Source of the DNA: Thiotrichaceae bacterium
GTDB lineage: Bacteria; Pseudomonadota; Gammaproteobacteria; Beggiatoales; Beggiatoaceae
Reading direction: 5' to 3'
Assembly: GCA_016745055.1 (NCBI GenBank)
Contig: JADGDF010000013.1
Location: 1 to 44,506, forward strand
Length of the DNA stretch: 44,506 nucleotides
Numbering within the stretch: the first letter of the stretch is position 1; each line of letters opens with the position of its first letter. Shown here one piece after another: positions 3,178 to 26,461 of the stretch. A model generated the notes under the pieces. The model ran no database searches and was not told the DNA's origin. It saw only the letters and a program-made list of their open reading frames with translations. Both the position numbers and the translations under genes were made by a program.

Positions 3178-4305
3178 TCAATTTTCCTGAGAGTTATAAC
3201 TAACTTCGTTCATACTGCCTGCCATCAAATTGATTTCAGTATGTACGCTGTCAAATTTATCTGCCATTTCTTCAAAAGTAATAGTTTCATTACCTTGACG
3301 ACCAATCAGTACGACTTCTTCGCCCCAAGTGACCTCTTCTTGTAAGTCAGTAATATCTACAGTAATAATGTTCAACGAGACTCTTCCCACCACGGGGCAA
3401 CATTGCCCTTTAATGAGTACAATACCTTTGTTAAACAAGCTGCGCGGGTAGCCTTCGCCAAAACCAACCGGTAGTGAAGCAATACGGCTATCACGAGAAG
3501 TTGTGAACAAACTACCATAACCTAATGTTTTTCCCGCAGGTACGTAGCGTATTTCAGCAATACGGGTTTTGATAGACATCACGGGTTGCAGTGCGGGTGG
3601 ATTTTGGAAATGTTGGGACGTACGCATTCCATAGCAAGCTGCGCCTATTCGTATTAAATCCTGTTTAAATTCTGGCAGACGTATTGCCGCTGCACTGTTG
3701 TGCGTATGTACTAAAATATTTTCTGGTAACTCATCTCGCAATGATTCTTTAAGTTCATAAAAAATCTCTAATTGATTGTGAGTATCCATCAAATCAGCGG
3801 CATCAGCTTTCGCAAGATGGGTCATGATACCCACAATATTTAGGCCAGACAGAGTACAAACTCGCTTCAACTCCTCTAATTGTTCAGGGAAAAAACCACT
3901 ACGTCCCATACCTGTGTCAATTTTTAGATGCACAGGTACGGGTTTGCCACGTCGCTGTCCTGCCTGATTCAAGTATTCAGCAATCTCCAATGAACCAACT
4001 TGTTCTTCAAGGTGTAAAGTGGTGAGAGATTCAGTCAATTCTTCTGGCAAAGCCATACGTAAACGCATTACTGGTATTTCAGGATAGCGCTGGCGGATTT
4101 GCCAGGCTTCAGGGTTAGTGCAAATACCTAAATAATCGGCACCGGCTTCCACTGCAGTTGAAAGTAGTGCTTCAAGCCCATGACCATAAGCATTGGCTTT
4201 CATTACCACACAACATTTCGTTGGCGTCGAAGATTGGCGTAAATAACGAATATTGGCTCCAAAAGTATCCTTAGCTATGTTAACTTGAATGTGATGTTGA
4301 TGCAT
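3178..4305 (-). CDS. alr: Alanine racemase (PLP-dependent)
   Basis: Interconverts L- and D-alanine for peptidoglycan. The 375 residues are the normal length. VMKANAYGHG carries the PLP lysine (Lys36), and Tyr263 in LGYGS matches the second catalytic base, followed by an SLPVGFGEGYPR block. The usual Met-Asp of the GRVSMD motif reads Leu311-Asn312 (GRVSLNIITVD), an unusual substitution also known from broad-specificity racemase relatives, so substrate range may differ. The gene is convergent with the small secreted gene and lies downstream of a glycosyltransferase on the same strand, with a MITE-like element in between. Confidence 0.9.
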   Translation of the reverse strand: MHQHHIQVNIAKDTFGANIRYLRQSSTPTKCCVVMKANAYGHGLEALLSTAVEAGADYLGICTNPEAWQIRQRYPEIPVMRLRMALPEELTESLTTLHLEEQVGSLEIAEYLNQAGQRRGKPVPVHLKIDTGMGRSGFFPEQLEELKRVCTLSGLNIVGIMTHLAKADAADLMDTHNQLEIFYELKESLRDELPENILVHTHNSAAAIRLPEFKQDLIRIGAACYGMRTSQHFQNPPALQPVMSIKTRIAEIRYVPAGKTLGYGSLFTTSRDSRIASLPVGFGEGYPRSLFNKGIVLIKGQCCPVVGRVSLNIITVDITDLQEEVTWGEEVVLIGRQGNETITFEEMADKFDSVHTEINLMAGSMNEVSYNSQEN

Positions 4306-4367
4306 TTTGTCTATTCCTTTTTATTTTGATCCTAAATCCCGCATCTTTTCACTGCCCCTAAAACAAT

Positions 4368-4472
4368 TAAGGAATAGGAATTAAATAACATCCATCAGTT
4401 TTCAATCAGACCTGGCAGGTTTTTAAAACCTGCCAGGTCTTGTTTCTGATTTTATTTAGTTCCCATTCCTAA
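4368..4472 (+). repeat. MITE-like palindromic element, copy A
   Basis: A 105-bp non-coding element with imperfect terminal inverted repeats (TAAGGAATAGGAATTAAATAA-type ends of about 21 bp). At its centre is a perfect 16-bp stem, AGACCTGGCAGGTTTT (4408-4423), with its complement at 4425-4440. Three more copies occur at 16201, 30397 and 37712. It lies between the glycosyltransferase stop (83 nt away) and the alr start, so its hairpin could end transcription or stabilise mRNA. Confidence 0.85.
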
Positions 4473-7774: not shown

Positions 7775-8362
7775 ATGATTAAATTTACCTTTTATTTTTT
7801 CTCCATTATTTTAATTTTTGCCGCAATGCGACTGATTACAGTGCGTAATCCCGTACATGCTGCGTTGTTCTTGGTACTGTCATTTTTCTCTTCAGCCTCA
7901 ATTTGGCTGTTACTACATGCAGAATTTTTGGCGATTGCACTTATTTTAGTCTACGTTGGTGCGGTTATGGTCTTGTTCTTATTTGTGGTGATGATGTTGG
8001 ATATCAATGTTACAATGATTCGAGATGGGTTTGCACGTTATATGCCAGTTGCAACACTAGTAGGTGTTGTGATTTTAGTTGAAATGGGTTTAGTTATTTT
8101 TTCCCATTTGCCAGAAGTACAACCTGTAGTGATGGCAGCAGATGTTTCTAATACTAAAATGCTTGGCCAAGTTTTATATACGATTTATGTCTACCCATTT
8201 GAAATTGCAGCAGTCATTTTACTAGTAGCGATGGTAGCTGCGATTGCATTAACGCATATACCTCGTACCCGAATGAAATATCAAACGCCTTCGCATCAAG
8301 TCAATGTAAGACGTCAGGATCGTGTGCGTCTTGTTAAAATGCCCACAGAGCCAAAGGACTAA
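7775..8362 (+). CDS. nuoJ: NADH-quinone oxidoreductase subunit J
   Basis: Membrane subunit of complex I. The 195 residues begin with a hydrophobic helix, then [53 protein letters not shown], the family core, and end in a hydrophilic tail. AAGG at 7761-7764 is the likely ribosome binding site. It follows the MORN-repeat gene and precedes nuoK by 2 nt. Confidence 0.95.
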
Positions 8363-16314: not shown

Positions 16315-19300
16315 TCAAGAGGCTTTATCAATAAATTGTTTAATAAATTGCTGTAACTTTCTTTCTTGGAAACTACGCGCTAATTGACAGACTTCTTGTA
16401 CAAAACCCTTCAATTCAGGTTCATCCTCTTCTAACGATTGTGCGTATACGACAATGCCGTGAATGTCACCTGCCTTTGCTAAATCTAACAATTCTACTGC
16501 TTGTTCAGACGAAGGAGGCACTAATTTTACATCAGCACTTGCCGTTTTTTTACTTAAGACATTGGGTGCCACTGCGGCACCACTCACTGAACTATCGCAA
16601 ATCCATTCTATTTCACAGTATTTTTCCAACGTTTCTAATAATTGTTGAGTATCCACAGGTTTGGGCAAAAATGCTTGACAGCCGGCGTCGTAACATTGTT
16701 GTTGATGATCACCGACAATATCCGCTGAAATTCCAATAATGACGCTATCATTAGCATTCAAAAACTGTCGTATATGTTGACTAGATTCAATACCATCCAT
16801 CACTGGCATCACAATATCCATCAAAATAATCTTTGGTTTTAAAGAATAAGCTTTATCTAAGGCTTCTTGACCATTTTCAGCTTCAATAATTTCAAAATTC
16901 AAGGGTTGTAACAAACTAATTAACATACTGCGGTTTTGCCATTTGTCGTCCACAATCAATATGGTATGCGGTTGACCTTTATAACCGATAATGGCGGCTT
17001 GTTGTGCAGCGAGTTTCTCTTCTTCCACATCAACTTTTACTGGGACCATAATACTAAAATAAAAACAACTTCCTTGATTGATAACACTTTTAACTTGTAA
17101 CTTCCCTCCCATCATACCCACTAATTTTTTGCTAATCGGCAAACCTAAGCCTGTCCCTTCTACGGTTAAACTTTGTGAACCTACTTGTTGAAAAGGCAAG
17201 AATATTTGCTCAATTTCCTCTTCAGAAATGCCAATACCTGTATCTTTTACGCCAAAAGTAAACTTTTTAAAAGTCTCTTTATGCCCATCATCAATATGGT
17301 GTTCTTTTAATTCCTGTGGATTCAAGACAGATTCCACTTTAATTGATAAGGTTACATCTCCTTTTTGAGTAAATTTAACCGCATTGCTCAATAAATTTAG
17401 TAATATTTGCCGTAACCTTTTTTCATCTACGCTTACTTCTGGCGGCAAGTGGTCGGATGCTTGATAAACAAAATTGATATGATTTTGTTGCGCGCGCATC
17501 CGAAATAATTCTACAATGGTATGAATAAATTCGGGTAAATGACAGATACTGGGTGCGAGTTCTAACTTACCTGCTTCAATTTTGGAGATGTCTAAAATAT
17601 CATTAATTAAGGTTAGTAAATGTTCCCCACACTGGCGAATAATATTAATCCCTTTCTGCTGATTTTCACCCAACGTAGCATCTGCTTGTAAAATCTGTGC
17701 ATAGCCCAAAATTCCATTTAAAGGTGTGCGTAATTCATGGCTCATGTTGGCCAAAAAAGTACTTTTAGCTTTGTTAGCTTTTTCTAATGCTTCTTCTGCT
17801 TGTTTGCGTTGAGTAATGTCTCGAGAAAAAATAGCCACATGAGTGACTTCTGAATCATCATTAATCACAGGGTAATAATTTCCTTCATACCAAATACCAT
17901 CTTTTTGGTCAACAAAAACGAGTGGCTTTTTAAAGCTAACGACTTGATCAGCAATTGTTCGTCGTCGTGTCGCTAGATCATGAGGTAATAAATCGAATAA
18001 ATAATCACCGATCACTTGCTTGGCAGTTTTTCCAAATTGTTGAGCGCCTGTTGGATTGACTGTTACAATTTTGCCATCAATTTCCATCATCAAAATAGTG
18101 TCTGTGGTGGCATCTAAAATAGCTTGTAATGTTTGCTCACGCTGTTGTAAAGTGGCCGTGCGTTTTTCTACTTGTTGTTCTAATAATTGCGCGTGATTTT
18201 CTAAATGTTTATTAATTTCTAGCAATTGTTGAGCAAATTCTAAACGCTCTGCTTCTGCATGTTTACGTTCAGTAATATCTTGAAATGCCACAATGGCGTA
18301 AGCAATATTGCCTTTTTCATCAAAAATAGGACTCCCCCAACTTTCAATGGGTGTCACGCGATCGCCTTGGTGCACTTCCATGTCATCTACTGAAGATACT
18401 TCCCCTTTTAAGGCACGAGTAATAGGACGTGACTCATAAGGATATAAATCATTTGTACCAGAAATATACAACTGGTAAAGTTCGGGTAATTCATGCGTTG
18501 TGTTGGCCAACATAATGCCGGAACCCAGTAATTCTTGTGCCTTTTGGTTAAAATAATAAGGTTTACCCTGTGCGTCTAGCACAGAAACACCTAATGGCAT
18601 AGCGTCAATAAACTGACTGAGGCTATTCTCACCCTCTTTTAATTTTTTATTCAGTAAATATAAATCATAAGCAAATTCTATACGCTCTTCGTCAGCACGT
18701 TTACGTTCGGTAATATCCTGAAAGGTAGCAATGGCATAAGCAATGTTGCCTTGTGCGTCGAAAATAGGGCTGCCCCAACTTTCTAGTGGAATAATTTTTT
18801 CATGGCGAATTTCCAAATTATCAACCATTGTTGACTCTCCCCATAATGCACGCACAATGGGTTGCCAATCACGCGGATAAGGTTGGTTTGTGCCTTGCAC
18901 ATAAAGTGGATAAGTCTCCATGAGTTTGTCATAATCATTTTTTCCATCAATGAATTCTTGAAAGTCTTTTTTACCTAATAATTCTTTGGCCTTTTTGTTC
19001 AAATAATAAGGGTATCCATCGCCATTGAGCGCTTGAATACCAATGGGCATCGCTTCTAAAAATTGAACCAGTTTTTGTTCGCTTTCTCGTAACTTTTTAT
19101 TAAGATGAAATAAATCATAAGCAAATTCTATGCGTTCCATTTCAGTGCGCTTACGATCGGTAATGTCTCGAAATGCTGTGATTGCATAAGCAAAATCACC
19201 CTGTTGATCAAAAATGGGTGTTCCCCAAACCTCAAACGGAGTATTTTTGCCAGCTTGATGGATTTCTATATCATCCACTGTGCAAGATTCTCCTTGAAAA

Positions 19301-20063: not shown

Positions 20064-20366
20064 TCACTTATGTTGACTTGCTTCATAATCTATTGCTTGT
20101 TCCATATCTTCTAAACTAAGTGGACGACCTTGATGTAAAGAAGGCATGTCTGGTGATTCCAGTTCGCTTACTTCTGATATATCATCATCTAAAAAAACGT
20201 TATAAACTGAAGGAATATCAGAAAGTTCTACTTTGTTTTTGGTAAAGTGTTTCATCCATTCTTCTGGCATTTCATCAAAATTATCAGAAATTTTTACTAA
20301 GCCTTTTGCTTCACCTAAATAACGGTTTGATTTTTTATTAAGTTGTTTTTTATAAAAATTTTTCAT
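20064..20366 (-). CDS. Small acidic protein, antitoxin-like
   Basis: 100 residues behind a GAGG ribosome binding site. The N-terminus is basic; LGEAKGLVKISDNFDEMPEEWMKHF resembles the short DUF2281-type antitoxins, and the C-terminal RPLSLEDMEQAIDYEA resembles the tail of AbrB/MazE-type antitoxins. No toxin gene overlaps it on either side, so it is an orphan or not an antitoxin. Its start lies 19 nt downstream, on the same strand, of a degenerate restriction-modification gene end. Confidence 0.55.
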   Translation of the reverse strand: MKNFYKKQLNKKSNRYLGEAKGLVKISDNFDEMPEEWMKHFTKNKVELSDIPSVYNVFLDDDISEVSELESPDMPSLHQGRPLSLEDMEQAIDYEASQHK

Positions 20367-20384: not shown

Positions 20385-20490
20385 TTATAATTCTAATTCC
20401 TCCAACCTATCCACAATCCCTACCGTCTCCAAACTAACTGTTATCACTTTCCCAACCAATTGCAATATATACTCTTCATCGTCTTTACGA
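20385..20490 (-). pseudogene. Remnant 1: last 35 codons of a type ISP-like restriction-modification gene
   Basis: On the minus strand this reads RKDDEEYILQLVGKV, then TVSLETVGIV and LEELEL-stop. It is nearly identical to the C-terminus of the intact gene ending at 22728. The similarity stops abruptly at 20490, where a 40-bp tandem repeat begins. Confidence 0.85.
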
Positions 20491-20590
20491 TTTTATATGT
20501 AAAGTTAAGTAAGAAAATTTACATATAGTTTTTTATATGTAAAGTTAAACGTAAAAAATTACATACAAGTTTTTATATGTAAAGTGATGA
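20491..20590. repeat. Three 40-bp tandem AT-rich repeats
   Basis: Units start at 20491, 20531 and 20571 with TTTTATATGTAAAGT, exactly 40 bp apart; the third is truncated. Each full unit is itself a weak palindrome (ATGTAAA ... TTTACAT). The core ATATGTAAAGTTA occurs once more at 22702-22714, upstream of the DUF488 gene. The role is unknown; protein binding sites are possible. Confidence 0.7.
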
Positions 20591-20796
20591 CTTGTTTTAA
20601 TCAGTAAAAATTTTGAGATATTTATCGAATACAAAAAGACGATTTCTTTGATAACCAGTTGTTTATTTTAGTATTTCTAATTTTTCAACTCGTAACCTAA
20701 AATGTAAAATGTGGTGAGGAAACGAGCCGCATCAATCAACCATATTATTACTCTCGTTCCCACGCTCCAGCGTCACTGTCATTTAGTTAAGCGCGT

Positions 20797-20846
20797 AGGA
20801 GTGCAAACTTTAGTTTGCACAGGCAAGATAAATCTTGCACTCCTAT
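20797..20846. repeat. Small palindromic repeat (copy 2)
   Basis: Hairpins GTGCAAACTTTAGTTTGCAC (20801-20820) and GCAAGATAAATCTTGC (20823-20838), framed by AGGAGTGC and GCACTCCT. It is an inverted relative of 16161-16200 and lies inside the gap between the two restriction-modification remnants. The preceding 20591-20796 shows no gene. Confidence 0.65.
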
Positions 20847-20848
20847 GT

Positions 20849-21038
20849 AATATATATTCTTCGTCATCTTTGCGGTTGGGATCGTTGATAATGCCGCTTC
20901 TTTTGTCGGTTTTGATTCGGTATTGGTCGATAACCCATTCTAGGGTGGAACGGTTGCCTAATTTGTAGTTGAAAGTTTCTGGTGGGATACTTTTTAAGGT
21001 TAGGAAATTGTTGTAGATTAGTTGGGTTTTGTCTTTGA
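20849..21038 (-). pseudogene. Remnant 2: C-terminal segment of a type ISP-like restriction-modification gene
   Basis: The minus-strand translation reads KTQLIYNNFLTL, then YKLGNRSTLEWVIDQYRIK and TDKRSGI with PNRKDDEEYI, matching residues about 930-1000 of the intact enzyme. Its 3' end repeats about 27 bp also present at the 5' end of remnant 1, so the two remnants overlap in content. It ends 12 nt from the stop of the next gene. Confidence 0.85.
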
Positions 21039-21049
21039 ATAACTTCTTA

Positions 21050-21877
21050 TTAAAGTGTTAATTGTAATTGTTTTTCTAATGGTGGATAAAAAACTCCGAT
21101 AATTACAAAAGGATTTCTAGCCCAACCATGATATTGACGTGTTGTACCTAAAAACAAGTAAATATCCTTTTCAGAAAATTTATCAAGATATTTTTTTCTA
21201 ACCAGATTAATAGCTTTTTTTTCATCATTATCAGATGATTTTAAACTATTCCAATATAATGCACCTATTTCCCAATCTTCAATCATAAGAGTGCTTTTTC
21301 TTCCAGCGTCATCTATGAAATGATAAGAAAATTTATAGGGTAATTTATTTACGATTAAAAATTCTCTTTCAACTTTCTCTATACTATCAAATAAGGAATA
21401 TTGACTAGCTTTTTGCTTGAGTAAGTCTAAGTTTTCTTGATTCCATTCTCGTTCTGTATTCTTAACAACTAAATTCAATATTTCTGTTGGCTTGAAGATA
21501 GCAAGGGACAGTTCATTATTATTGGCTTTTTTTATCAATTCATCTAAATTACGATAAATAATACCATTTTCTAAAATAATTTTTTTCCGTTCACTCCAAT
21601 CATTTTTTGTATCTATAGAATCACCCAAACTTATTTTAGAAATATCTTCCACCTTATGACTTTCGGGTCTTGGATCATTCTTATTTTCTACTAATGGTAG
21701 CGTCATCCATTGATATTTTTTATATTGATTTTCATAGTCCAGCTTTCTAAATGGTAAAGGATAAATACGTACCCAACTACCATTTTCAAGAACACCAGCA
21801 GTACAAACAAGCTCGTCATATTTCTTTGATAATGTAGGATAAGTCTTAACTACAATAAATACCTTGCTCATTTTCAT
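21050..21877 (-). CDS. Conserved protein of unknown function, partner of a DUF488 gene
   Basis: 275 residues, soluble. The N-terminus KVFIVVKTYPTLSKKYDELVCTAGVLENGSWVRIYPLPFRKL reads as a beta-rich domain, followed by charged helices. The C-terminus has IEDWEIGALYWN and DIYLFLGTTRQYHGWARNPFVIIGVFYPP. I do not recognise a named family. It overlaps the upstream DUF488 gene by 4 nt (ATGA, 21874-21877), so the two are co-translated. Position next to a restriction-modification gene suggests a defence-related unit (inference). Confidence 0.75.
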   Translation of the reverse strand: MKMSKVFIVVKTYPTLSKKYDELVCTAGVLENGSWVRIYPLPFRKLDYENQYKKYQWMTLPLVENKNDPRPESHKVEDISKISLGDSIDTKNDWSERKKIILENGIIYRNLDELIKKANNNELSLAIFKPTEILNLVVKNTEREWNQENLDLLKQKASQYSLFDSIEKVEREFLIVNKLPYKFSYHFIDDAGRKSTLMIEDWEIGALYWNSLKSSDNDEKKAINLVRKKYLDKFSEKDIYLFLGTTRQYHGWARNPFVIIGVFYPPLEKQLQLTL

Positions 21878-22680
21878 AAATGTATCACTTTAACATTGTT
21901 TTTTGTTTGTAAATAGTCAGATATACAATGTCTATGACATTCTTGATGTTTTTTTTCAAAGCAAGTAATAGCAATATGTTGATATTTTTCTAATAAATGA
22001 ATTAAGTATTTAAGACTTGTTTTCTTTTGAGGTAAAGAAACTTGGTATTTATCAAATAATTTCAAATATTCTTCCTTAGTTTTTAAATCTTTGCGTGCTG
22101 AAGATTCAATACCTAATTCTGGAATATGTTCATATTGAATATCTATTTTTTGCAACAGTTCTAACATAATGTTTTTTGAAAAGCCAAATTTTCGACTAAA
22201 GGCATTTTTTCTAACATCACAAATTAAATTTATTTTATTTTTTAATAAGTGATTTACATAAGCATCAAAACTAATACCTTCATATCCGATTGTAAAAAGC
22301 GTATTCGTTTTATTATTGGATTGGGATTGGGGAAAATTACTTGTCTTTACTAAAACAGATTTTTGCTTTGAAAGATAATCTATTTTTAATATATCTTTTA
22401 CATTATTAGATTGATTAATAATGGATTTTAATAAAACTATATTATCTCCAGATTCTTTTAACCAGCCTTGTTTTTCCAATATATTTATGTCATTTTCTGC
22501 TTGAAATGAATAATAATTTGAATGGTAAGGAATAAAATCATAATAGGCAAATTCTGCCTTTTGATGTAAAAGGAATAATTGTTTAAAAAAATCAGCTTTT
22601 AACAAAATTCCATTGCTTTTTTCTAAAACATATAGCAAAAAACGTTGGCGATGAAATTTCGGAATATAGAGTTGTGGCAT
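21874..22680 (-). CDS. DUF488 protein with N-terminal winged-helix-like domain
   Basis: 268 residues. About 1-90 (FHRQRFLLYVLEKSNGILLKADFFKQLFLL ... YYDFIPYHSNYYSFQA) resembles the DUF4065/Panacea-like helical domain. About 125-268 is DUF488: TLFTIGYEGISFDAYVNHL, CDVRKNAFSRKFGFSKN, HIPELGIESSARKDL and CFEKKHQECHRHCIS, with conserved Cys/His residues suggesting metal or catalytic chemistry. DUF488 has no established activity. The gene starts 48 nt after the restriction-modification stop, same strand, and overlaps its partner gene by 4 nt. Confidence 0.85.
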   Translation of the reverse strand: MPQLYIPKFHRQRFLLYVLEKSNGILLKADFFKQLFLLHQKAEFAYYDFIPYHSNYYSFQAENDINILEKQGWLKESGDNIVLLKSIINQSNNVKDILKIDYLSKQKSVLVKTSNFPQSQSNNKTNTLFTIGYEGISFDAYVNHLLKNKINLICDVRKNAFSRKFGFSKNIMLELLQKIDIQYEHIPELGIESSARKDLKTKEEYLKLFDKYQVSLPQKKTSLKYLIHLLEKYQHIAITCFEKKHQECHRHCISDYLQTKNNVKVIHL

Positions 22681-22727
22681 ATTTTAAGTTGAATAATTTC
22701 CATATGTAAAGTTATGGATTTAAGTAA

Positions 22728-25700
22728 TTATAATTCCAATTCTTTCAATTTTAACACAATCCCTACCGTCTCCAAACTAACCGCCACTACTTTCCCAACC
22801 AATTGTAATATATATTCTTCGTCATCTTTGCGGTTGGGATTATTTACAATGCCGCTTCTTTTATCGGTTTTAATTCGGTATTGATCGATAATCCATTCTA
22901 GGGCAGAACGGTTGCCTAGTTTATAGTCGAAGGCTGGTTTGGGGATGCCAGTTAGGGTTAGGAAATTATTGTAGATTAGTTGGGTTTTATCTTTGGAGAG
23001 CCTCATTTTTTCTACTTTTAGGCTGAAGGGGTATTTGGGATTTTCTATTTGTGCTAGTTGGTAGGGTTGAATTTGTTCGTAATTTAGGTGGAGTTCGGCG
23101 AGTTTTTGACCAGCTTGAGCGAAGTCCCAGAATGTTGGGGTGAGTGGTAGGCGTGGGAGTTCTCGTTTTAGGTTTTGGGCGTATTTTTCTCGGTATTGGG
23201 GTTGGTGGAGCAAACTGTAAACGTAGTGGAATATGTCCCATTTGGTTATTTTTTTATCTTGGTAGTGTTGTTGCCAGTGGTTTAATGCCCAGTCGGTGAT
23301 GTTTTCGGTGCGATTGCTGCCGTCTTCGTTGTAGGTGTAGAAGGGAAATGCTTGACCATTGCGTCCGCCTATACATAAATCTGGAATACAATCAGTTATT
23401 TGTACTACAAACGGAATTTGTGAATGATTAGTACAATAAATAACCCTATTTTCCGCTTCTGTTTCTGGAGTGGGGAAAATCTTTGGAAAATTATAAACAT
23501 CTTCATTAAAAATTCTTTCAAAATAGTAAAACCGTTTGGTAAAAGGACGGTACAATGAATGACGAATTTTTTCTTCATTAAAAACGACTTCTTTACCACG
23601 TAACAAGCTTCTTTTAGTGTACCGAATCCATTTCAAGACTCTTTCATCGATGTTTAAAAAACCTTCAATTTCTTTGGGTTGTCCTTTGTGTATCCATCTA
23701 TTTTGTTCAGAACCGTAGTTTTCTACCATTCCTTGAACTATTTCAACGAGTTTAGCGGAATCAAAATTGTACAGATAAGCATCACTGTTAGTTTTCACAC
23801 CGTTACTGAAAATCTTAAAAACAACTCCCTCAACTTCTTTCTTAGTTGCTTTCGTTTCCTTTGTACCCAATGGAACAAATTTATCAAATTCTTCATGCAG
23901 TCCTTCAGTTAGCCAGATGTGTTTTTTGTCCGCACACACAAGTTGCATTGGAATACCAGAATAACTTTTAGCAGAGTCTAAGAAATTTTTCTTGTCATGG
24001 GCCTTCAAGTAATCATCAATGGAATATAACCATATTTCGGCATTTTTGTTAGCCAATTGTTTGCTTTTTATGAAAAATGTAATACCAACACTTACCCTAA
24101 TACTATCATCAAAAACATTACCACCTTCTTGACGACGACGTTCTCCTGAAGTACGAGCATTACCTTTTAAATTAATATGATAAATCTTAGAAAAATCTTG
24201 AGCCAAATGCTTCCGCATCCCATCAAACGCAATGCTATCTAAAAAACTATTATTAGTCACAAACGCAACAATGCCTTCATCTTTAATTCGCTCAGAAGCC
24301 CATTTAATCGCTTTCACATAAGGATCGGACAAAGAATTTTTCAAAGTCGCCTTAGAATCTTTAGCATAAGTTTCTTTCACCCAATTCCCTACAGTTTTAT
24401 AAACTTGATTCTTATTATTATCATTCTCATTATTTTGACTTGCATTATAAGGCGGATTGCCAATAATAACGAAAAAATCAGTTGCTTTTTGCTTCTCAAC
24501 CCGCTCAGTATTTTCTGGTGCAAATAGATCAGGTTGTTTATCCTCCACCAACTCAAACGTATCTGCCAAACAAATTCCCTCAAATGGCAGATACCGCCCC
24601 ATCACATCCATATACTGATGCTCAATATTCATACAAGCCAAATAATAGGGCAACAACATGATTTCATTGCAATGCAACTCATTTTTATACTTATAATCCA
24701 ACTTCATTTTTCCATGCGAACCCAACGCCCGAATCACTCGACTAATAAAATTACCCGTTCCCACAAACGGATCTAAAATATGCACCCCTTTATCCGCCAA
24801 CGACTTACCAAAATCCTGCTGTAAAATCTCCTCCACCGACCGCACCATAAAATCTACAATCGGCTGGGGCGTATAAACAATTCCATGCGTATCAGCCACT
24901 TTAACCGAAAAACCCTGAAAAAATCGCTCATAAATCGTATTCAAAAAATGCTGCTTATAGCTATATTCACTAATCGTGGCCGCCACCCCTTCCAAAGCCT
25001 TATAAAAATACTGCAACTCCGCAAAAAAAGCATCTCGATTAAAAGACTTAGCCGTTAATTTCTCAATCACCACCTCAATTTCACGAGCAATAATATTGCG
25101 TTTAGCAAACTCTGAATAACTAAACAAATTTCGAAAAATCCGCTCTGTCAATAAATGCTGAATTAACATTTCCTCAATCGCAGCGTCAGCCAAATTCGGA
25201 TTAATCGCCTGCCGACATTGTTCCGCAAAACTATTAAAAGCTTTGTTAAACGGCTTATCTTTCTGCAAAGCCGTCCGAATCACTGCCAACAACCTAGCGC
25301 CCAACTCCGGCACACGTTCCTTAAACTCAATCGCCGCTTTGTCCCACGCATCATATTCTGGACGCTTAAAATCAAAAAACTGCTCAACCACTGCCAGCAA
25401 ATTTTCTGGTTTAGCCAACGGGACATCCAACACAACTTCACCATTTTGAATCAGAATGGCATGACTAGGCTTTTGAAATACAATATTATCTTGCGGATAG
25501 CCTTTGCCATATAACTTCTCCTGAATGGCAGGCTCCAATTTAACTGACTCCCTCTTCGCTTCCCAATAACCACGAGGAATTTGAGACTCATCAAACAAAG
25601 TGCCATCCAAACGGATAGCTTGCAAAGTCTGCTCTTGAATTAAAGTCCAATTCCGAGATTGGGCATAAGCCTCTAAAATATGTTGAAAAGCCTGCTTAAC

Positions 25701-25793
25701 GGTATCTTCCTGCGTTTGGTTAGCCCGCTCAAAAGCTTGCAATTCCTGATAGTAATTCTTGATTATTTTATGGTTGGGCGTTATTTTTAGCAT
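22728..25793 (-). CDS. Type ISP/IIG-like single-chain restriction-modification enzyme
   Basis: 1021 residues combining nuclease and adenine methyltransferase. Near the N-terminus RLDGTLFDES followed by GYWEAKRE gives a PD-(D/E)xK nuclease site. The centre has SAM motif I DPFVGTGNF and catalytic motif IV NPPYN. The C-terminal third (TKWDIFHYVYSLLHQPQYREKYAQNLKRELPRLP ... YKLGNRSALEWIIDQYRIKTDKRSGI) is the type ISP C-terminal domain that reads the target. The helicase of true type ISP enzymes is missing, so it is closer to a IIG layout. It would cut and methylate DNA by itself. The 3' end is duplicated in degenerate form at 20385-21038. Confidence 0.88.
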   Translation of the reverse strand: MLKITPNHKIIKNYYQELQAFERANQTQEDTVKQAFQHILEAYAQSRNWTLIQEQTLQAIRLDGTLFDESQIPRGYWEAKRESVKLEPAIQEKLYGKGYPQDNIVFQKPSHAILIQNGEVVLDVPLAKPENLLAVVEQFFDFKRPEYDAWDKAAIEFKERVPELGARLLAVIRTALQKDKPFNKAFNSFAEQCRQAINPNLADAAIEEMLIQHLLTERIFRNLFSYSEFAKRNIIAREIEVVIEKLTAKSFNRDAFFAELQYFYKALEGVAATISEYSYKQHFLNTIYERFFQGFSVKVADTHGIVYTPQPIVDFMVRSVEEILQQDFGKSLADKGVHILDPFVGTGNFISRVIRALGSHGKMKLDYKYKNELHCNEIMLLPYYLACMNIEHQYMDVMGRYLPFEGICLADTFELVEDKQPDLFAPENTERVEKQKATDFFVIIGNPPYNASQNNENDNNKNQVYKTVGNWVKETYAKDSKATLKNSLSDPYVKAIKWASERIKDEGIVAFVTNNSFLDSIAFDGMRKHLAQDFSKIYHINLKGNARTSGERRRQEGGNVFDDSIRVSVGITFFIKSKQLANKNAEIWLYSIDDYLKAHDKKNFLDSAKSYSGIPMQLVCADKKHIWLTEGLHEEFDKFVPLGTKETKATKKEVEGVVFKIFSNGVKTNSDAYLYNFDSAKLVEIVQGMVENYGSEQNRWIHKGQPKEIEGFLNIDERVLKWIRYTKRSLLRGKEVVFNEEKIRHSLYRPFTKRFYYFERIFNEDVYNFPKIFPTPETEAENRVIYCTNHSQIPFVVQITDCIPDLCIGGRNGQAFPFYTYNEDGSNRTENITDWALNHWQQHYQDKKITKWDIFHYVYSLLHQPQYREKYAQNLKRELPRLPLTPTFWDFAQAGQKLAELHLNYEQIQPYQLAQIENPKYPFSLKVEKMRLSKDKTQLIYNNFLTLTGIPKPAFDYKLGNRSALEWIIDQYRIKTDKRSGIVNNPNRKDDEEYILQLVGKVVAVSLETVGIVLKLKELEL

Positions 25794-25863: not shown

Positions 25864-25946
25864 TGCGGGGACAAGTTTACAACCTGCACCCAAACGTTTT
25901 AGCAAACTTTGAAATTCATCAAAACGTCGGATCAAGGTTACAAACC
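25864..25946. repeat. Left part of a palindromic repeat split by an insertion
   Basis: Matches the first ~83 bp of the intact 97-bp repeat at 41434-41530 (ACAACCTGCACCC, then CGTTTT, AAATTCATCAAAACG, GGTTACAAACC). It breaks at GGTTACAAACC (25936-25946), exactly where the DUF559 element begins. The remainder continues at 26439. Confidence 0.75.
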
Positions 25947-26438
25947 AAAGGTATCTACACAAGTTGTTTTATCCCCCCTCCTCGCAGGAGGGGGTTAGGG
26001 GGTGGTGATAAAAACAGTATTCTTTAATATTTCAAACCAAGTTTTGCTTTAATAAATATTGGGCAATTTCTTCTTTTACAGCCTCTAACTCCATAAATAC
26101 TTGGTGATTCCAAAAACGCATTACTTGATAGCCGAATCTCTCTAAATATTCTGTGCGTTGGGCATCAGCTTGTTGCTGTTCTGCATGTTGCCCACCATCC
26201 AGCTCAATAATCAGCTTAGCTTCAATACAAACAAAATCAACAATATAATGCTCAAAGACTTGTTGACGGCGAAACTTATAGCCCAGCATTTGCCGTTTAC
26301 GTAGAGGCTGCCAAAGTAAACGCTCGGCATCTGTAGGTGCATTGCGTAAATTTCTTGCCCGTTATTCACCACCCCCTAACCCCCTCCTGCAAGGAGGAGG
26401 GATAAAACCCGTTGTTACCAACTTGTGTAGATACCTTT
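25947..26438. mobile_element. 492-bp DUF559-carrying element with 20-bp perfect inverted ends
   Basis: The ends AAAGGTATCTACACAAGTTG (25947-25966) and its exact complement (26419-26438) enclose a second inverted pair of G/C-runs (GGAGGGGGTTAGGGGGTGG type, about 25971-26010 and 26368-26402) and a DUF559 reading frame. It is flanked by GGTTACAAACC (25936-25946) and GGTTAAAAACC (26439-26449), an 11-bp near-perfect target duplication inside a palindromic repeat whose uninterrupted copy is at 41434. No transposase is encoded, so it would be mobilised in trans or by the DUF559 nuclease (inference). Confidence 0.75.
26032..26289 (-). CDS. DUF559 Vsr-like endonuclease, apparently 5'-truncated
   Basis: 85 residues from the ATG at 26289. 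MLGYKFRRQQVFEHYIVDFVCIEAKLIIELDGGQH and YLERFGYQVMRFWN are the core of DUF559, a Vsr-like PD-(D/E)xK fold (catalytic D and E in VDFVC/IELDGGQH). Family-like sequence continues in frame upstream without a start codon (RNLRNAPTDAERLLWQPLRKRQ, up to 26361) until a TAA at 26362-26364. The normal N-terminus has therefore been lost, and either the short form or nothing is made. It is the only gene of the element around it. Confidence 0.75.
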   Translation of the reverse strand: MLGYKFRRQQVFEHYIVDFVCIEAKLIIELDGGQHAEQQQADAQRTEYLERFGYQVMRFWNHQVFMELEAVKEEIAQYLLKQNLV

Positions 26439-26461
26439 GGTTAAAAACCTTGACCCACGAG
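26439..26461. repeat. Right part of the palindromic repeat split by the DUF559 element
   Basis: GGTTAAAAACCTTGACCCACGAG completes the repeat whose left part is 25864-25946. Compare GGTTACAAACCTTGACCCGC in the intact copy near 41510-41530. Confidence 0.7.

Follow-up and report, generated by a model that had tools for sequence, protein, structure and literature searches.

Type ISP enzymes of the LlaGI/LlaBIII type are the reference point for the restriction-modification (R-M) gene described here, with which they have in common an ISP coupler, an ISP C-terminal specificity domain and an N6-adenine methyltransferase (MTase). The DUF488 domain encoded next to this gene was reportedly placed in the rhodanese-phosphatase superfamily by Burroughs and Aravind in 2023, and DNA-end processing in conflict systems is said to have been predicted there. 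The closest catalogued system is the PADLOC candidate PDC-M19; guilt-by-embedding is the approach that yielded the PDCs, most of which lack validation (PMC12988326). The PDC-M19 entry carries no description or mechanism, whereas the folds and the natural fusion reported below come from the present analysis. Two neighbouring genes in the window (the whole stretch of DNA analysed, 44,506 nucleotides from a Thiotrichaceae bacterium) match its two profiles with high scores (PDLC04505 for M19A, PDLC04508 for M19B), in identical order and strand, and by these profile matches the pair can be assigned to PDC-M19. The pair here differs from the catalogue entry in lying behind a type ISP-like IIG gene accompanied by relics of R-M 3' ends. 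An initial annotation of this DNA had treated the 275-aa partner as unrecorded, which no longer stands, as PADLOC already lists the pair. The features of the locus are as follows.

20064–20366, minus strand: VapB-like antitoxin gene (55% to L179 3298–3603, E 8e-26)
20385–20492, minus strand: relic 2, R-M 3' end (aa ~986–1021 plus stop), from a third allele (82% over 108 nt to 22728–22835)
20491–20584, no strand assigned: 40-nt tandem repeats, CTTTACATATAAAA at 20491, 20531 and 20571; also in L173
20600–20686, minus strand: 3' relic of a Fic-family gene, last 29 codons (tblastn to the Fic of G060, L173)
20795–20845, no strand assigned: dispersed palindromic repeat (MITE/REP-like) that terminates relic 1 (87 genomic near-copies of its core)
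20846–21051, minus strand: relic 1, R-M 3' end (aa ~930–1001; 84% over 206 nt to 22804–23009)
21050–21877, minus strand: M19B, 275 aa, predicted tandem OB folds (PADLOC PDC-M19B 4.2e-113; model pLDDT 90.5)
21874–22680, minus strand: M19A, DUF488 gene (Pfam DUF488 1.7e-21; PADLOC PDC-M19A 1.6e-75)
22728–25793, minus strand: R-M gene, type IIG / ISP-like, intact, 1021 aa (Pfam, PADLOC, motifs)

Along the minus strand, the order runs from the R-M gene through the DUF488 gene, the 275-aa gene and relic 1 to the dispersed palindromic repeat, and beyond it to the Fic 3' relic, the 40-nt tandem repeats, relic 2 and the VapB-like gene. M19A starts 47 nt past the R-M stop in the same direction, M19A and M19B overlap by 4 nt (ATGA), and relic 1 begins immediately past the M19B stop codon. 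The previously proposed layout of an intact R-M gene, a DUF488 gene, a 275-aa gene with a 4-nt overlap and R-M 3' relics is confirmed, with corrections as to the origin of the relics (below); the dispersed repeat, the Fic relic and the 40-nt repeats between the relics had gone unnamed. No tRNA attachment sites were found in the window. Elsewhere, the interval from the R-M gene to ruvA contains two nested inverted-repeat pairs (25929–26456; arms of 50 and 38 nt, ~90% complementary) that enclose a DUF559 ORF (26032–26289), and three 147-nt repeats of 67–77% identity (18199–19233) lie within a histidine kinase gene whose PAS units are repeated.

The R-M protein matched the Pfam families Type_ISP_C (4.7e-94), ISP_coupler (2.1e-17) and N6_Mtase, and the PADLOC profile REase_MTase_IIG across its full length (2e-192). 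Its C-terminal part is the ISP specificity domain, and the ISP coupler is also present. The MTase motifs (DPFVGTGNF and NPPY) are intact, as is a putative nuclease-like motif (DGTLFD..EAK), the latter assigned by reading the sequence only. With nuclease motif, N6-MTase and ISP specificity domain together in one chain, the protein classes as type IIG / ISP. In contrast to type ISP enzymes, the coupler is preceded by just ~160 residues, so that there is no helicase domain, and the PADLOC label is type IIG.

Relatives of M19B were detected in a scan of GTDB species genomes (at least 496), with a sporadic distribution (8 of 299 genomes in a phylum-wide sample). Of 98 loci, 95 have the A gene directly upstream of the B gene (94 according to gene calls and L057 according to tblastn; L036 and L043 in this sample are two names for one locus), a further locus (L039) encodes a natural DUF488-M19B fusion as a single protein, and the remaining two are interrupted by contig ends. 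Computation thereby shows that M19A and M19B are nearly inseparable. On a Pseudomonas plasmid and in Gordonia phages the two genes are still adjacent, but with DUF488 facing M19B, and on a Sulfolobus plasmid the gene next to M19B has no Pfam match. In the temperate Gordonia phages, M19B is positioned behind the immunity repressor, facing the DUF488 gene and near an integrase. In Gordonia phage Nymphadora (L267), gene 42 carries a HipA toxin annotation but encodes a DUF488 protein (Pfam 1.2e-29), the product of gene 43 is related to M19B, and both genes lie between immunity repressor and integrase. Relative to G035, dN/dS is ~0.22 for M19A and ~0.24 for M19B, values that reflect purifying selection. 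Some A proteins have no N-terminal domain, including the L039 fusion, the short A proteins of L137 and L138, and the DUF488 proteins of 150–158 aa in the Gordonia phage and on the Pseudomonas plasmid. The core of the system would therefore be DUF488 plus M19B.

M19A scored 77.5 bits against the DUF488 family (PF04343; gathering cut-off, 22.2), with the CHR motif present, and it also matches Pfam DUF488-N3a. Seven residues (C240, E242, C248, H249, R250, D155 and R157) are invariant in all 38 sequences compared. In the predicted structure (pLDDT 92), the DUF488 domain resembles the PTP phosphatases SsoPTP, laforin and PRL-2 (Z 8.0–8.6, 103–115 residues), with C240 probably aligned to their catalytic cysteine, as judged from the aligned ranges only; it also matches tetrapyrrole/diphthine methylases, of which the tetrapyrrole methylases score as well as the PTPs. 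The N-terminal domain has its best structural match in the DarTG complex, over 109 residues of one chain (7yk3_D; Z 10.2) that is presumably the C-terminal domain of DarG, and winged-helix proteins are matched as well. Sequence relatives of M19A in the PDB were limited to a marginal match to MmeI (E 0.4). For the window's own M19A, Panacea (PF13274) gave no match at E 1, short of its gathering cut-off, while 7 of 38 relatives had a weak match (best E 0.0019); together with the DarTG-chain match, this upholds the earlier assignment of a DUF4065-like N-terminus. The models suggest that M19A combines a winged-helix, Panacea/DarG-like N-terminal domain with a PTP/rhodanese-like DUF488 domain that has intact active-site cysteines. 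In its predicted PTP-like fold the protein appears similar to the DUF488 clade of the rhodanese/PTP superfamily, with which it also has an active site of conserved cysteines in common, but it differs by its near-obligate partner with predicted tandem OB folds. Compared to Panacea (PanAT) and DarTG systems, its N-terminal domain is weakly Panacea-like in sequence and DarTG-chain-like in fold, while M19A adds an intact DUF488 domain, the pair is without a DarT-like partner, and forms without the N-terminal domain occur.

It could be argued that the pair is a toxin-antitoxin module, with M19A as antitoxin by virtue of its Panacea-like N-terminal domain, M19B or the DUF488 enzyme as toxin, and addiction stabilising the R-M locus. 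The resemblance to Panacea and to the DarTG chain, probably the DarG C-terminal domain, would fit such a role, as would the toxin-antitoxin modules in many R-M loci of this bacterial family. An intact and invariant DUF488 active site is, however, unlike a plain antitoxin, and the forms without the supposed antitoxin domain (L039, L137, L138, the Gordonia phage and the Pseudomonas plasmid) also speak against the idea, which is considered quite doubtful.

M19B matched no Pfam family over its cut-off and has no sequence relatives in the PDB. Its predicted structure matches RPA, Teb1, HIN-200, the telomere end-binding protein, RMI1 and LEF-3, a baculovirus ssDNA-binding protein. The Foldseek match to an RPA filament reached 4.9e-6, and the telomere end-binding protein, RMI1, RPA and HIN-200 gave Z of 6–7.2, where values <8 mean that the topology is possibly coincidental. 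The models suggest that M19B consists of tandem OB folds like those of ssDNA-binding proteins. It is similar to RPA, Teb1, telomere end-binding proteins and LEF-3 in this predicted tandem architecture, but is unrelated to them in sequence, remains at Z <8 and has its own set of conserved residues, acidic and aromatic.

Around the pair, R-M genes account for 33 of the 149 genes within 1.5 kb, compared to 2 of the 276 genes >5.5 kb away (Fisher p 2e-14), and a DNA methylase family is absent among the commonest Pfam matches of the far genes. Four loci have the type III order mod-A-B-res, others the type I orders hsdS-A-B-hsdR and hsdR-A-B-hsdS, and still others adjoin type IIG genes. Computation thus shows strong enrichment of the pair next to or within R-M loci of three types (I, IIG and III). 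A recognised R-M gene is present within 3.5 kb at 25 of 80 sampled genome loci and lacking within that distance at the other 55, about two thirds; some loci adjoin housekeeping genes (e.g., prfB or lysS), and plasmids carry the pair with no R-M gene nearby, which shows that the pair also occurs alone. The matches to PDC-M19A and PDC-M19B, the near-invariant pairing and the enrichment at three R-M types all bear out the proposal, made from the window alone, that the two genes form a candidate defence unit. The same position inside R-M operons would suit a helper of DNA repair or modification that shields the host from cleavage by its own R-M system instead of attacking phage, and OB folds joined to an end-processing type of enzyme would suit repair equally. 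Against this, temperate phages (behind a repressor) and R-M-less plasmids carry the pair, which is better explained by defence or exclusion; host protection is the least probable of the readings considered here.

The relics match the R-M gene far above chance (protein-level E of 2.3e-31 for relic 1 and 5.5e-10 for relic 2). They share 32 nt of the R-M gene but differ in sequence there, so they represent two separate alleles, and that of relic 1 is also distinct from the intact gene. Relic 1 is 88.5% identical to the R-M 3' end of G020, compared to 86.2% for the adjacent intact gene. The expectation of degenerate R-M 3' copies was correct as to the presence of two relics, but relic 1 is not a recent copy of the adjacent gene. 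The differing 32 nt exclude that an insertion, duplicating its target site, divided one original copy, and the closer G020 allele excludes recent copying from the adjacent gene. The notion that the 3' end is the best-conserved part of the gene, favouring recombination, found no support, as the MTase core is more conserved. Between the relics, the core of the dispersed repeat has 87 near-copies genome-wide, compared to 0 for a reversed control pattern. The Fic relic is 83% identical (tblastn, E ~1e-8) to aa 357–385 of an intact Fic in G060, a member of another genus. That locus (L173, G060:C510) has the order R-M 3' end, intact Fic, the same 40-nt repeats and R-M 3' relic; the repeats, with no other occurrence in the window's own genome, likewise lie there between Fic and the R-M relic. 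The nucleotide alignment of the Fic relic and repeat region to L173 scored 281 (shuffled maximum, 144). From this order, with its intact Fic and matching relic and repeats, it follows that a Fic cassette formerly occupied the bracket here. Computation on these sequences shows relics of two different R-M alleles together with a relic of Fic.

Relatives place this bracket in context. The R-M 3' end is present in 31 of 42 genomes of the bacterial family, and two or more such ends occur within 4 kb on one strand at ~10 loci (a manual count from tables) in six genera. The bracketed cargo consists of a lipoprotein and BrnT/BrnA in L033, an intact Fic in L173, a DNA methylase in L042, and AlbA_2, an unknown gene and VapBC in L171. 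Other brackets are without cargo, with tandem intact R-M genes in L174 and decaying tandem copies in L034 and L169. Relics in L034, L169 and L171 keep N-terminal or specificity-half start fragments, and those in L171 show an internal deletion; the retained fragments show that at least some brackets are deleted tandem copies. The brackets examined showed no integrase-like gene, and no recombinase or precise junction that would explain cassette entry was found. The idea that R-M genes insert at a conserved site beside ruvCA was rejected, as 0 of 29 relatives have R-M beside ruvA within the sequence stretch examined, and for the same reason no exact empty site of the M19 pair is demonstrable. L171 also contains two fresh duplicates of the R-M 3' end, one joined to a split specificity-half start (4203–4466; 98% over 211 nt) and one with a copy of the start of the next gene, AlbA_2, behind it (7816–7960), an apparently recent case of array turnover.

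Recombination and decay among R-M copies explain the relics, which therefore need no dedicated insertion mechanism, and recombination and deletion among many R-M alleles account for the bracket picture as a whole. Of the initial annotation's cassette at the R-M 3' end, the recurrence of the same bracket with other cargo in relatives (Fic, BrnTA, DNA methylase, AlbA_2 with VapBC) stands, but L174, L034 and L169 are the plain tandem or decaying R-M copies that it had named as the contrary case, and a dedicated cassette-insertion mechanism is only partly supported. The broken gene ends around the pair show that small defence and toxin-antitoxin genes have repeatedly been gained and lost at this site. 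The bracket could even be mere tandem R-M duplication followed by decay, the pair being a chance arrival with no functional relation to R-M, as the intact tandem of L174, the decaying copies of L034 and L169, the internally deleted relics of L171 and the ordinary chromosomal genes that come next after most R-M 3' ends of the family would all allow. Chance arrival is nevertheless thought somewhat unlikely: elsewhere, unrelated R-M operons belonging to three types show enrichment of the pair, which in some of them stands between mod and res, and here it is co-directional with the R-M gene at a short distance from its stop.

The ISP-like R-M gene is also rearranged in six genera of the bacterial family, where it is split at aa ~577–586, the boundary of the methylase and specificity halves (L271 819–4505, L272 783–4557, L270 713–4455, L179 1571–5314, L178 5303–9952 and L176 4963–7538). 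The inserts between the halves are toxin-antitoxin-like (VapB-PIN, a UPF0175-like antitoxin with a PIN-like gene, PIN alone, or an antitoxin with RhuM/Fic), and the four genes of L271 follow one another almost without gaps. The VapB-like gene of the window is homologous to the VapB within the split R-M gene of G059, though its match to NCBIfam TA_VapB is weak (2.7e-4, under the cut-off); no toxin gene adjoins or follows it (20064–20366), making the antitoxin an orphan.

Overall, it is moderately probable that M19AB serves as an accessory immune cassette, mobile and directed at DNA ends or ssDNA, and is situated here in an R-M array rebuilt by recombination and deletion. The cassette would travel with R-M operons, and the array here would have been rebuilt repeatedly between alleles of one R-M family, leaving R-M 3' relics and the remains of an earlier Fic cassette. 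Given the folds and the adjoining end-making enzyme, B may recognise ssDNA or DNA ends and A may act chemically there. M19B would bind ssDNA or ends of invading DNA, e.g., after cleavage by the neighbouring R-M enzyme, and recruit M19A, whose DUF488 domain would alter the DNA end or a bound nucleotide such that the cut genome is beyond repair or replication, with the winged-helix N-terminal domain gating this activity. Chemistry at DNA ends, gating by the N-terminal domain and an antiviral effect of the pair are all predictions. A broader proposal, offered tentatively and judged unlikely, concerns the ISP-like R-M genes of this bacterial family and the cassettes M19AB, Fic, BrnTA, VapBC and DNA methylase: the R-M ends and the inter-domain break would be trading sites for cassettes through allele recombination, with M19AB as a DNA-end-directed back-up on R-M-cut DNA.

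The candidate family was already catalogued; the present analysis adds the probable folds of its proteins, their natural fusion and a documented cargo turnover in the R-M bracket, and cargo exchange at R-M 3' ends is the fresher part compared to the pair itself. If the immune-cassette reading is right, a tandem OB protein and a cysteine enzyme at DNA ends would provide a testable mechanism for a widespread, unvalidated defence candidate, and the locus would preserve a sequence record of R-M loci gaining and losing immune cassettes, with L173 as the intact counterpart of the decayed Fic.
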